Assembly (NCBI RefSeq): GCF_900107455.1
Contig: NZ_FNQB01000004.1
Coordinates: 630,193 to 694,192 of the forward strand
DNA from: Asanoa ishikariensis
GTDB taxonomy: Bacteria > Actinomycetota > Actinomycetes > Mycobacteriales > Micromonosporaceae
Length of the DNA stretch: 64,000 nucleotides
Direction: 5' to 3'
A program made the translations under genes and the position numbers. Positions 57,750 to 61,077 of this stretch are shown piece by piece (positions within the stretch are counted from its first letter, which is position 1; every line of letters begins with the position of its first letter). Under the pieces are notes generated by a model. That model saw nothing but the letters and a program-made list of their open reading frames with translations, had not been told where the DNA came from and did no database searches.

Positions 57750-59040
57750 GTCGGTACGCGCTCTGCTGGTCACGGTGGCCGAGCGCGGGGCAGGGGAGCA
57801 GATCGTCCCACCGGTCGCTGACCTGATCGGGCGGGCGCGCCGATCTCGCCGGCGGCGTCAAACGGTCGCCTGCGCGGTCGTCCTAGCGGTGGCGGCCGCC
57901 GTCGCGGTGCCGCAGGCGGTCCTGGACCGGGGGCCGGCGGAGCGATCGGTTGCCCCTTCCTGGCAGGGATATCCGGCGACCGGTCCGGGCACGGCGATCG
58001 CGCTGGCAGCCGGGCGTTGGAGCAGGTTGCCGTCAGCGCCGATCCCCGGGCGGTCGGACGCGGCGACGGCCTGGACCGGCACCGAGATGCTTGTCTGGGG
58101 CGGCCGAGTGGCGGACTCGGCGCGCGCCGACGGGGCCGCCTACCGGCCTTCGGATCAGCGGTGGACGGTCCTCCCGCCGGCGCCGCTGACGGCCCGCTTC
58201 GGCATGGCGTACACGTGGACCGGCGCCGTGTTGTTCGTCTGGGGTGGGGGCGACACCACTGCGGACGGCGCTGTCTACGACCCGGCGGCGCGGATCTGGC
58301 GGCTCCTGCCGACGTCGCCGCTGTCCCCGCGCACAGATGCGACAGCGCTCTGGACCGGACGCGAGGTGCTGGTCCTCGGCGGACGGTCCGAGGACGGACG
58401 CGCCCTGGTCGACGCGGCCGCCTACGACCCCGCTACCTCGCGGTGGCGGTCGCTGCCCGCGTTGCCGGCGCCGCCCGACCACCCCGTGGACTATCTCGTG
58501 CCGGTGGTCACGGGCGACCAGGTCTACGTGTGGGCGCCGTGGGCGCACCGGGTGCACACGTCCCCGAACACCATCCACACGAACTACGCCGTTGATCTGT
58601 TCCGCTTCGACACCCGGACCGATACGTGGTCCACGCCCGAGCTGACCGGCGATGCTCCGGCTGGTGCGCGCCAGCCCCTCTGGACGGGGCGGGAGATCAT
58701 CGTCCCGGCCGCTTTCCCGTACCGGCCAGGCTCTGGCCCCATCGTCGTCAACCTCCGCGGCAGCCGCCTCGACCCGGCCGACGGGCGATGGCGAACCATG
58801 ACCCACGGCCCGATCGACGACCGGAACGGCCAATACGTCTGGACCGGCGCGGCTGTCATCTCTTTCGACAACGCGGGTGCGGGAGCCGTCTGGGATCCCG
58901 GCGCGGACCGCTGGACCACAATCCCGGACGCGCCGCGGGCACCCGCCGAGAGCGCTTCGATGGTCTGGACCGGAACGCACCTGTTGATCTGGGGAGAGCT
59001 CGGCCCGCCCGAGAGCGCCGGCCTCAGCTACGGAAGCTGA
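57736..59040 (+). CDS. Membrane-anchored kelch-like protein, likely sigma-factor partner
   Basis: This 434-residue protein has a short cytoplasmic N-terminus, an Arg-rich stop (RRSRRRRQT) and a transmembrane segment (about residues 43-60). A six-bladed kelch-type propeller outside the membrane follows: repeats of [46 protein letters not shown] and [13 protein letters not shown]. Anti-sigma partners of SigE-type factors often have such a single membrane pass. The GTG start lies within the end of the sigma gene. Ligand or signal sensed is unknown. Confidence 0.8.
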
Positions 59041-59059
59041 ACCCCGCGCAGAAACGTCG

Positions 59060-59090
59060 TTGACAGCCCATTGATCATTTTCGGTACGAT
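59060..59090 (+). promoter_or_regulatory. Promoter of the tRNA-like / SDR transcript
   Basis: TTGACA (59060-59065) matches the consensus; TACGAT (59085-59090) follows after 19 bases. The expected start point is only a few bases before the first tRNA-like gene. Confidence 0.55.
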
Positions 59091-59102
59091 CGCCGCAAGG
59101 TA

Positions 59103-59176
59103 GGGCCTGTAGCGCAGGGGTGGTCGCGCCGCATTCCACTAGGCGGAGGATGCCGGTTCGAGTCCGGTCGGGCCTT
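59103..59176 (+). tRNA. tRNA-like gene 1 with enlarged anticodon loop
   Basis: The 74 bases fold as a class I cloverleaf: 7-bp acceptor (GGGCCTG with CGGGCCT, two G-U pairs), TA at positions 8-9, 3-bp D-stem, 5-base variable loop AGGAT, and a T-arm GCCGG-TTCGAGT-CCGGT. The acceptor could be extended to 9 bp by A-T and T-A pairs. The anticodon stem CCGC/GCGG has an A-G mismatch below an 8-base loop TTCCACTA, so the anticodon is ambiguous: CCA if the second T is U33, UCC if the first. No CCA end is encoded. It may be a degenerate copy of gene 2 or a functional odd tRNA. Confidence 0.5.
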
Positions 59177-59189
59177 ACCCCTCGCGTGG

Positions 59190-59262
59190 TGGCCGGTAGC
59201 GCAGTGGTTGACGCGCCGCACTCCAAATGCGGAGGACGCCGGTTCGAGTCCGGCCCGGCCAC
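59190..59262 (+). tRNA. tRNA-Trp-like gene, anticodon CCA
   Basis: These 73 bases give a regular cloverleaf: acceptor TGGCCGG/CCGGCCA, TA at 8-9, 3-bp D-stem GCG/CGC with 10-base loop, G26, anticodon stem CCGCA/TGCGG with 7-base loop CTCCAAA, variable AGGAC and T-arm GCCGG-TTCGAGT-CCGGC. The anticodon is CCA, which would read UGG (Trp). The acceptor can extend to 9 bp (GGTGGCCGG/CCGGCCACC), after which C and CCA follow at 59264-59267. The sequence does not look like an ordinary actinobacterial tRNA-Trp. It stands 26 bases before the SDR start codon. Confidence 0.65.
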
Positions 59263-59288
59263 CCCCAGGCGCAGAGGTGAACAAGGCG

Positions 59289-60611
59289 ATGAACGGTGAC
59301 GAGCTCGAGGCCCTGCTGCGGGCGCTCGGTGAGGTTCGCGAGCTGCCCGTCGACGATCCTGCCCGGCTGCGCGTCCAGCGTGCGGTCGACGGCCTGGTCA
59401 AGGATGCCCAGCGGCAGCGGCGAGCCAACCGCCGGCGACAGACCTCGGCCGCCGACCGGGCGGTAGTTGCCACGGCGGCCACTGGTGCGGCGGACCGGGC
59501 CGACGGCGAACCGGTCCCCGCCGCCGAGCCGGTCGATCGCGGCCGGACGCGCCGGGAGCGGCGTTGCTATGCCTGCTTCGGCCGATTCCGCGACGTCGAC
59601 GCGTTCTACCACGCGCTTTGCCCGAGCTGTGCTGACCTTCACCGCCAGCACCGCGATGCCAGAGCCGATCTGCGTGGCCGGCGTGCGGTGGTGACCGGTG
59701 GTCGGGTCAAGATCGGTTATCAGGTGGCCCTGAAGTTGCTGCGTGACGGCGCGGCGGTCACGGTGGTGACGCGCTTCCCGGCGGACGCCGCGCGCCGGTA
59801 CGCGCAGGAGCGGGATGCCGCGACCTGGCTGCCGGCACTGCGAATCATCGGTGCCGACCTGCGTGACCCGCGCCAGGTGCTGGACCTTGCCGAGCGGTTG
59901 GCCGAGGGCGGCCTGGACATTTTGATCAACAACGCGGCCCAGACGGTACGGCGGCCGCTCTGGGCGTTCCAGCCGCTCGTGGCGACGGAGCTCCTGGCGG
60001 TCGGCGCGGTCGAGACCGTGACCGGCTACCGACCCGGTGCGGCTCCACCCGAATGGCAGGCGGCGCTTGAAACGGCGGGTTCGGCGCTGGCGGGCGACAC
60101 CGACGCCACCGGCGCGTTGGTGGTCCGCGGCTCCGCGAACTCCTGGACGGCCCGGATCGGCGAGATCGACCCGGTGGAACTGCTGGAAGTACAGCTCGTC
60201 AACGTCGTGGCCCCGTTCCTGCTGGTCGACCGGCTCCGCGGGGCACTGAGCAAAGCCGGCCCGAGCTACGTGGTGAACGTGAACGGCCGCGAGGGCTGGT
60301 TCGGCGAGAACGGCCCCGGCCCCGAGCGCCACCCGCACACCTCCGTCAGCAAGGCGGCGCTCAACATGCTGACCCGGGTCGGCGCGGCCGACCTGGCGCG
60401 ACACCGGGTGTACATGTGCGGTGTCGACACAGGATGGGTCACCGACGAGAACCCGGCCGACATCAAGGCGCGTCGCGCCTCCTCCGGCTGGCGACCGCCA
60501 CTGGACGTGGTGGACGCGGCAGCGCGGATCTACCACCCGATCATCAGCGGTGAGTCCGGAGCACCCTTGCACGGCGTGCTGCTGAAGAACTACGCCGTCG
60601 TGCCGTGGTAG
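59289..60611 (+). CDS. Zinc-finger SDR-like protein downstream of tandem tRNA-like genes
   Basis: This 440-residue protein has a helical N-terminus (residues 1-45), an Arg/Ala linker and a four-cysteine zinc-finger-like motif (Cys93, Cys96, Cys111, Cys114; CYACF to CPSC). An SDR-type Rossmann domain from residue 133 follows (VTGGRVKIGYQVALKLL; NNAAQTVRR). The usual YxxxK active site reads TSVSK (Thr351 to Lys355), so the catalytic tyrosine is missing, although the fold and HPHT context are kept. The ATG at 59289 follows AGGTGA by 8 bases; the frame upstream runs through tRNA-like gene 2 and is not coding. The reaction, if any, is unknown; the finger suggests nucleic-acid or protein binding. 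Confidence 0.8.
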   Translation: MNGDELEALLRALGEVRELPVDDPARLRVQRAVDGLVKDAQRQRRANRRRQTSAADRAVVATAATGAADRADGEPVPAAEPVDRGRTRRERRCYACFGRFRDVDAFYHALCPSCADLHRQHRDARADLRGRRAVVTGGRVKIGYQVALKLLRDGAAVTVVTRFPADAARRYAQERDAATWLPALRIIGADLRDPRQVLDLAERLAEGGLDILINNAAQTVRRPLWAFQPLVATELLAVGAVETVTGYRPGAAPPEWQAALETAGSALAGDTDATGALVVRGSANSWTARIGEIDPVELLEVQLVNVVAPFLLVDRLRGALSKAGPSYVVNVNGREGWFGENGPGPERHPHTSVSKAALNMLTRVGAADLARHRVYMCGVDTGWVTDENPADIKARRASSGWRPPLDVVDAAARIYHPIISGESGAPLHGVLLKNYAVVPW

Positions 60612-60612
60612 G

Positions 60613-61077
60613 TCAGGCCGCCTCCGAGACGGTCTTGAGGCGGCCGAGGCCCTTCTCGAAGTCGGGGCCGATCATCTGGTCCATCGACTTGAAGATGCCC
60701 ATCAGCCGGATGCCGAGGCTCTTCGGGCCGATCATCGTCCAGGTGACCCGGGACCCGTCGGCCGCCGGCTCGACCCGGAACATGATCTCGTTGCGGGACT
60801 TGAAGGGCTTCTCGAAGGCCAGGTCGATCTTCACGTCGGACGGCTCCTGCGCGGAGACGATCTCCATGCGGCCGACGCCGGCCTGCTTGTTGCCCGACCA
60901 CGAGTAGGCCGCGCCGGGTCCGGCCGGGGCGCCCGAGTAGTGACGCTGCAGCGCCGGGTCGACATCTTCCCACGGCGACCACTGTGTCCAGTTGTGAAAG
61001 TCCGCGATCTTCTCGTAGATCCGGGCCGGCGGCGCCGCGATCTCGATCGATCTCACTACCGTGTACGTTTCGGTCAC
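60613..61077 (-). CDS. SRPBCC-family (polyketide cyclase/START-like) protein
   Basis: This 154-residue helix-grip protein starts YTVVRSIEIAAPPARIYEKIADFHNWTQWSPWEDVDP, a usual start of the polyketide_cyc2 group, and ends with a long helix (MIGPDFEKGLGRLKTVSEA). Such proteins bind hydrophobic ligands in a central cavity; few have known function. It is convergent with the SDR gene, one base apart. Confidence 0.87.
   Translation of the reverse strand: MTETYTVVRSIEIAAPPARIYEKIADFHNWTQWSPWEDVDPALQRHYSGAPAGPGAAYSWSGNKQAGVGRMEIVSAQEPSDVKIDLAFEKPFKSRNEIMFRVEPAADGSRVTWTMIGPKSLGIRLMGIFKSMDQMIGPDFEKGLGRLKTVSEAA

Follow-up and report, generated by a model that had tools for sequence, protein, structure and literature searches.

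The locus described here raises the question of why two tRNA-like genes should lead directly into the gene of a zinc-finger protein of the short-chain dehydrogenase/reductase (SDR) family. It was found in a stretch of 64,000 nucleotides of the Asanoa ishikariensis genome (9.09 Mb, 11 contigs, 99.96% complete); this whole stretch (G000:C5:630193-694192) is called the window below, and coordinates given without a contig or locus refer to its forward strand. A first-pass annotation, made from the sequence alone, had described a cloverleaf pair in front of the gene and had supposed a link between the RNAs and the protein. This finding holds and extends further than was described, namely to the variability of the anticodon loops, to a long acceptor helix and to other partner genes. 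The existence of a conserved module of tRNA-like RNAs and a pseudo-SDR protein is near certain, and a function of this module in conflict or surveillance is the leading but unproven interpretation.

The link was examined in homologues of the window protein, which were gathered by protein search, some of them being hand-picked from the search list and none being chosen by RNA. tRNA-like genes were then sought upstream of them with a covariance model, R1, and were counted at a score of at least 55 bits. In a tree of 106 proteins, 36 of the 44 rows on the type A side have an upstream tRNA-like gene versus 0 of the 62 rows on the type B side (Fisher p 7e-21, which is only a guide because related rows are not independent). 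The tree was obtained by a quick method with midpoint rooting and carries a long-branch warning, and types A and B denote the two sides of a branch, not established clades; in a smaller and more careful tree, 10 linked rows stand on one side of a branch with a support of 100/99. Partial or duplicate loci (L001, L002, L004, L007, L083, L084, L131 and L137) were left out of the large tree, and among these L083 has a tRNA-like gene and L084 has none at the threshold used. The 54 RNAs on which R1 is based include those of the loci discussed, whose own scores are therefore high by construction, and none from a type B locus. The first-pass annotation had expected conservation of upstream cloverleaves if the link was real and their general absence if it was not. 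Type A genes mostly keep the RNAs; all 62 type B homologues lack them, so the zinc-finger SDR fold can exist without RNAs and the link is no general rule.

RNA loss is also suggested within type A. Eight of its 44 rows lack a recognised RNA (L074, L075, L079, L125, L128, L130, L132 and L142), L125 having a decayed copy of 34.7 bits at 1297-1375. Decayed tRNA-like genes were found beside open SDR genes also at L090 (2937-3016, 43.0 bits) and L093 (1406-1482, 41.8 bits), and these decayed second or only copies suggest that RNAs have been lost.

An empty site was found in one congener, G003, where the two genes that border the unit in the window, one kelch-like and the other an SRPBCC gene, adjoin each other at a distance of 69 bp without RNAs or SDR gene; the missing extent corresponds to 59041-60610. 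In two of the remaining four congeners the SRPBCC gene stands beside genes lying elsewhere in the window, and the other two give no alignment past the SRPBCC gene. No SDR homologue was found in the five congeners searched at E ≤ 1e-30. The empty site suggests that the unit was gained or lost as one piece, in either direction. Together with the conserved linkage, it makes it well supported, as judged from sequence comparison, that protein and RNAs work together. The proposal that the protein may bind, modify or depend on these RNAs is thus partly supported, binding or modification being a possible form of the joint action. R1 was also run more widely at E ≤ 1e-12: at class level 24 of 394 genomes gave a match, in family f31 the number was 47 of 250, and in genus g92 (Streptomyces by guess) it was 94 of 246.

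In the window, Rfam and ARAGORN both recover the two RNAs, 13 bases apart by Rfam coordinates, as had been described. The SDR gene starts with the ATG at 59289, 26 bases past the second RNA, and has its own ribosome-binding site, GAGGTG, at 59274-59279. A probable promoter was read in the sequence at 59060-59090, with TTGACA at 59060-59065, a 19-nt spacer and TACGAT at 59085-59090. The promoter had been called consensus-like, but it is weaker than this suggests, given the 19-nt spacer and a sigma-70 scan that allowed spacings of 16-18 nt and reported nothing at this site. No terminator-like site was present within 58900-60750, in agreement with the first-pass annotation. Since tRNA-like 2 has no -10 box of its own, it and the SDR gene are probably transcribed from the first promoter, and the close spacing likewise points to joint transcription of RNAs and gene.

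The first RNA, tRNA-like 1 (59099-59179), has D, anticodon and T arms and an extended acceptor of 11 bp (59099-59109 with 59169-59179), that is, four pairs more than the usual seven. It is matched by Rfam RF00005 at 59103-59176 with 38.4 bits (gathering score 29) and by R1 with 81.0 bits. Its anticodon loop, TTCCACTA (59134-59141), has 8 nt and, in our own cloverleaf, a mismatched A-G closing pair; ARAGORN likewise finds 8 nt and assigns to it a 4-base anticodon, ccac, for which no amino acid can be named. The second RNA, tRNA-like 2 (59188-59263), has an acceptor of 9 bp (59188-59196 with 59255-59263; extension of 2 bp) and the 7-nt loop CTCCAAA with U33 at 59221-59227; it is matched by RF00005 at 59190-59262 with 62.3 bits and by R1 with 92.5 bits, and ARAGORN calls it tRNA-Trp(CCA). 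The best ordinary tRNA of the same genome reaches 60.5 bits with R1. RNAfold alone gives no full cloverleaf for either RNA. Both had been described as class I cloverleaves, which is only partly right because the acceptor helix is extended.

This extension is a general property of the family. In the alignment of the 54 RNAs, from which one spurious cloverleaf (L073, 2129-2217) had been left out beforehand, 91.6% of the cells of the cloverleaf are paired with a covariation of 0.486 versus 0.166 after shuffling, and the five T-stem pairs are formed in 99.6% of cells. The acceptor consists of 7 bp plus a four-pair outer helix, which is paired in 72.7% of cells and has a covariation of 0.60, compared with 0.20 for shuffled and at most 0.33 for slid alignments; its outermost pair is the weakest and is unpaired in 26 of 54 RNAs. 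A measure of change on both sides is positive for 4 of 4 pairs of the extension, but this carries no weight, as the same value was obtained in 496 of 500 shuffles. When counted up to four pairs in 143 RNAs, the extension has 3-4 pairs in 99 and 1-2 pairs in 18 (mean 2.71 bp), compared with a mean of 0.31 bp for 52 ordinary tRNAs of the A. ishikariensis genome, four of its 56 ARAGORN tRNAs being unparsed. In the group related to the window, the first RNA mostly has four additional pairs and the second RNA has none to three. In 115 of 144 RNAs, three or more of the outermost acceptor pairs are closed in the RNAfold minimum-energy structure; this pool includes one ordinary tRNA-Met beside L212, which was removed for the counts of 143 and 82 given in this report.

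A TANNNT box lies 9-14 nt ahead of the acceptor in 105 of the 144 tRNA-like genes. Shuffled sequences give 3.7 on average, and among ordinary tRNAs of the same genome the box was present in 10 of 55; window tRNA-like 2 is among the tRNA-like genes without it. The position of the box suggests that transcripts would begin with, or close to, the outermost pair of the long helix. The 3' ends of the RNAs vary and have no regular CCA. As encoded, most of the RNAs exceed the 7-bp acceptor of a decoding tRNA, to which they may be trimmed in the cell.

Anticodon loops are usually among the most conserved parts of tRNAs, and in these RNAs they are the most variable part where the bodies are near-identical. 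We compared 16 first RNAs and 13 second RNAs from close relatives of the window locus, using pairs of equal length only (79 of 120 for the first RNA and 78 of 78 for the second). In tRNA-like 1, 251 of 553 loop comparisons differ (0.454 per site) versus 214 of 4346 in the body without anticodon stem (0.049); in tRNA-like 2, the corresponding values are 201 of 546 (0.368) and 352 of 4290 (0.082). After the loop, the segment that varies most is on the 5' side of the acceptor for the first RNA (0.146) and on its 3' side for the second (0.214). Thirteen of the 16 first-RNA loops are distinct. The first RNAs of L039 and L089 have no difference at 55 body positions and differ at 4 of 7 loop positions, and between L095 and L096 the anticodon arm of the second RNA has been exchanged. 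Across lineages, 82 standard arms contain 52 distinct loops and 19 central triplets, and the several RNAs of a locus carry different loops. By our own criteria, 61 of 144 arms are non-standard, having bulged stems, loops of 6, 8 or 9 nt, or a constant Trp-like arm. Given such variable anticodon loops and the longer acceptor helix, the suggestion that the RNAs control translation of the gene is unlikely for RNAs acting as ordinary tRNAs.

The protein encoded behind the RNAs (59289-60611, stop codon included; coding part 59289-60608) has 440 residues and was assigned to type A by the tree, with Pfam, a structure model and Foldseek describing its domains. Its four-cysteine finger (Cys93, 96, 111 and 114; 59565-59630) is unchanged in an alignment of 26 homologues, of which 20 belong to type A and 6 to type B, and type B proteins share architecture and invariant residues with type A. 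Pfam adh_short matches residues 133-224 with E 2.9e-16. In the predicted structure (predicted local distance difference test score, pLDDT, 86.6; predicted template modelling score, pTM, 0.85), long N-terminal helices precede the finger and an SDR domain with Rossmann fold, and 50 of the 50 Foldseek matches listed are SDR-family structures. Absence of the catalytic tyrosine had been noted in the first pass and was borne out by comparison with solved SDRs: the tyrosine is replaced by threonine, and the catalytic serine has gone as well (glycine in the window protein, alanine in the consensus). Only the lysine is kept, and the Ser-Tyr-Lys set of a classical SDR enzyme is thus incomplete. Named relatives were found in Actinoplanes, Paractinoplanes and Winogradskya, with a more distant one in Murinocardiopsis, and four plasmid matches were obtained at E ≤ 1e-30, one of the two inspected carrying no annotation. 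A phage origin was considered and rejected, since a tblastn search of 50,697 phage records with the window protein gave nothing at E ≤ 1e-5. The SDR part alone is matched by phrog_3142, a profile of FabG-like phage proteins with 596 positions (E 1.4e-30 and 1.3e-35).

SDR genes are not the only partners of these RNAs; genes of repeat proteins are others, in part sharing an operon with the SDR gene. In 79 catalogued loci, the first gene behind the RNAs encodes an SDR protein in 39 loci, a leucine-rich repeat (LRR) protein in 8 and an ankyrin protein in 3; the rest are 18 Trp-like orphans, 10 other orphans and one unparsed locus. The loci L153-L235 are the best-scoring R1 matches and not a random sample, and most stretches stop 1.5 kb past the RNA, so that a further LRR or ankyrin gene may be missed. 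Units carry one to three tRNA-like genes, 18 of the 39 SDR loci showing one only, and the distance from the last RNA to the start of the SDR match is 25-197 nt in 36 of 39 SDR loci. Within the stretches examined, an LRR gene follows the SDR gene in 6 of 39 SDR loci and an ankyrin gene follows the LRR gene in 7 of 8 LRR loci; for the eighth (L156), a longer stretch (L239) shows an ankyrin gene too. At L240 the order is tRNA-like, SDR, LRR, two tRNA-likes, ankyrin protein, tRNA-like. The LRR protein matches PF13516. In the ankyrin protein the Ank_2 match is confined to the C-terminal part, and each of its 50 listed structural matches has an ankyrin fold, alone or as part of a fusion. No LRR gene was found in the A. 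ishikariensis genome at E ≤ 1e-5, in a search run without positive control.

Of the 28 orphan RNAs, 27 were compared at the DNA level only, and no common downstream gene emerged, similarity of more than 250 bases being confined to the pairs L211/L222 and L224/L230. The Trp-like orphans (L160, L161, L164, L172, L174, L180, L182, L211, L213, L215, L217, L221, L222, L224, L226, L227, L230 and L234) have a nearly constant loop, CTCCAAA or a close variant, and 17 of them were compared as DNA without a common neighbour being found. Two other pairs without a known partner gene, L158/L214 (ACGGCAT/ACGTCAT) and L209/L231 (CGCATGT/CTCATGT), have related arms. At L153, an open reading frame at the cut-off of ParE_toxin (23 bits) lies at 1657-1953 on the opposite strand behind an orphan tRNA-like gene. 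At one syntenic locus of Streptomyces-like genomes (L236, L237 and L238), genes for an AAA_5 (MoxR-type) ATPase and a DUF2201 metallopeptidase/VWA-like protein are convergent to the SDR gene, and a Trp-like tRNA-like gene (CTCCAAA) lies beyond this pair; Pfam was run on L236 only, and the ATPase weakly matches the PADLOC model MkoA (E 4.3e-8 over 40 residues). Elsewhere in the A. ishikariensis genome, outside the window, 22 Rfam tRNA matches are crowded into less than 4 kb (G000:C2:1892645-1896405), possibly a tRNA array of a mobile element.

To explain these observations, we favour the reading that the window locus is the minimal form of an actinomycete RNA-protein module that serves as an RNA-baited, tripwire-like system of surveillance or conflict, and we give it a probability of about 35%. 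Transcription from the promoter would begin at the outermost pair of the extended acceptor or a few bases away, and one to three tRNA-like RNAs would be made, followed by the mRNA of the pseudo-SDR, with LRR and ankyrin proteins being added in other lineages. The pseudo-SDR, with its basic N-terminal helices, finger and nucleotide-binding domain, would most likely bind the constant body and the long acceptor helix, and the anticodon loop would stay exposed as an outward-facing recognition surface. Since the loop would be exposed and changes rapidly while the body is constant, it may be the surface read by something outside the module. This reader would most likely be an anticodon-reading factor, for example an anticodon nuclease or another tRNA-targeting factor derived from an invader or rival. 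Attack on the loop or its capture might then be sensed by the protein partners, which is the speculative step, and rapid change of the loop would reflect conflict. Conserved linkage, the empty site, the extended acceptor helix, the -10 box in register and the variability of the loops speak for this reading, as do the scattered presence of the module across genomes and the repeat proteins among its partners. A bolder version is more tentative: the modules may represent a so far undescribed class of immune or rivalry systems, made of RNA and protein, in multicellular actinomycetes. The pseudo-dehydrogenase, joined by LRR and ankyrin proteins in the fuller versions, would display the RNA as a variable receptor; the loops would be diversified in the manner of antigen-binding loops, and hostile tRNA-targeting factors would read, cut or capture them.

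Several observations weigh against surveillance or conflict. Of 143 RNAs, 26 have no helix extension. In one lineage (L068-L072), nearly the same arm is kept by five genomes of four genera, which speaks against universal diversification. The 82 standard arms retain U33 in 66, a purine at position 37 in 64 and C36 in 59, so the loops are variable yet not free everywhere. Loops equal to a tRNA loop of the same genome number 9 of 83 (the ordinary tRNA-Met included) versus 5.6 expected from column shuffling (P 0.09), or 6 of 53 distinct loops versus 2.9 expected (P 0.05); a decoy acting by exact mimicry of host loops was rejected at this test, and because the mimicry is not significant the decoy version is unproven. 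The eight type A genes that are open yet have no recognisable RNA are a further difficulty. The partner proteins scanned contain no obvious effector domain, PADLOC models give no match to the SDR or LRR protein, and the ankyrin protein has one weak match to a PDC model in the repeats only (E 3.9e-6). The empty search of phage records belongs here too.

The main rival to the surveillance reading is a codon-addressing role at the ribosome, in which uncharged or unusual tRNAs would enter the ribosome or another decoding factor and the variable triplet, mostly GNN, would pick the codons. The retention of U33, purine 37 and C36 and the tRNA-like D and T arms would be expected of such translation modulators. 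In addition, the pair A32-U38 goes with NGC triplets (7 of 10 versus 7 of 42 distinct loops, p 0.002, in a test chosen after seeing the data); since A32-U38 is the tuning pair of Escherichia coli tRNA-Ala(GGC), this association hints at a reading of the loop similar to decoding. We nevertheless think this role unlikely. The acceptor helix is lengthened in most RNAs, the 3' ends are variable, part of the 61 non-standard arms have bulged stems or loops of 6, 8 or 9 nt, U33 is absent from 16 of 82 arms, and many triplets are carried by near-identical bodies, which would leave no obvious aminoacylation identity. It is rather improbable that the loop pairs with cellular or foreign RNA on which the SDR, LRR or ankyrin protein acts. 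A constant body with a short, hypervariable and exposed segment, and several differently looped RNAs per locus, would suit such a guide or adaptor, but the specificity of seven nucleotides is low, U33 and C36-A37 are under constraint, and no catalytic domain was seen in the partners scanned.

Gene order recalls type III toxin-antitoxin units of the ToxIN type, with tandem RNAs ahead of a gene whose protein they bind and silence, and RNAs and gene are absent together from one congener. We regard this explanation as improbable. If an RNA were needed to keep a toxin in check, the eight type A genes that persist without recognisable RNAs would be hard to explain, and type B homologues do without RNAs altogether. 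In addition, the protein has an SDR fold and is no ToxN-like RNase, and no terminator stands between RNA and gene. An equally doubtful possibility is that the tRNA-like sequences merely shape the 5' end or the dosage of the SDR mRNA and that loop variation is neutral. The close spacing agrees with it, but neutral drift would be expected in the D and T arms too, and the loop of tRNA-like 1 differs about nine times as often per site as the body; moreover the stems covary, and R1 matches occur also without the gene nearby. Finally, Rfam and ARAGORN do call these RNAs tRNAs, and ordinary tRNA genes might adjoin the SDR gene by chance. This is hardly credible in view of the extended helix and the variable anticodons, and chance neighbourhood is refuted by the difference in linkage between type A and type B.

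How the module relates to known systems can be summarized as follows. In type III toxin-antitoxin systems such as ToxIN, tandem structured RNAs or RNA repeats lie directly ahead of a protein gene, and the window unit has the same order of tandem RNA and protein gene; unlike ToxIN, it has cloverleaf RNAs, a pseudo-SDR instead of an endoribonuclease and no terminator seen, and the gene is kept without RNAs in 8 of 44 rows. The type B zinc-finger SDR homologues agree in architecture and invariant residues and have a tRNA-like gene in 0 of 62 loci. Nearest to the present unit come allo-tRNAs and a pseudo-tRNA of Bacillus cereus. Allo-tRNAs (Mukai et al., 2017) are described in the section on them in a review (PMC7609411) as having acceptor/T stems of 8/4 or 9/3 (12 bp together), very diverse anticodons and, in many cases, SerRS identity, with some lying in polycistrons and some being unusable in E. 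coli translation. The present RNAs resemble them in being tRNA-shaped with diverse anticodons (19 triplets in 82 standard arms) and differ in having mostly a 7-bp acceptor with 3-4 additional pairs and a T stem of 5 bp; partners of the SDR, LRR or ankyrin kind are not mentioned in that section. The pseudo-tRNA tRNAOther of Bacillus cereus is likewise a tRNA-like RNA that does not work in translation, but the part of its description covered here (PMC3399842) concerns a single RNA in a Bacillus and mentions neither a hypervariable family nor a dedicated protein partner. MoxR-vWA conflict systems are variable and preponderant in multicellular prokaryotes (PMC7159879), and a MoxR/VWA-like pair is convergent to the unit in the three Streptomyces-like loci that share one locus. 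They differ in that no RNA component was seen in the part of that account covered, the word tRNA occurring once in its main text, in a reference.

In the open-access literature, with bioRxiv outside the search and a paper elsewhere being possible, we found no description of a tRNA-like/pseudo-SDR unit, and it looks like an RNA-plus-protein system undescribed so far. We could find no counterpart to a family of RNAs that keeps a tRNA body, changes mainly the anticodon loop and is tied to repeat proteins and a single disabled enzyme. Should the loop serve as a surface for recognition, the module would be a variable-RNA receptor system, and to our knowledge no such kind exists outside guide RNAs. 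If the RNAs enter the ribosome, they would represent a new way of addressing codons. Either reading can be tested in culturable actinomycetes.

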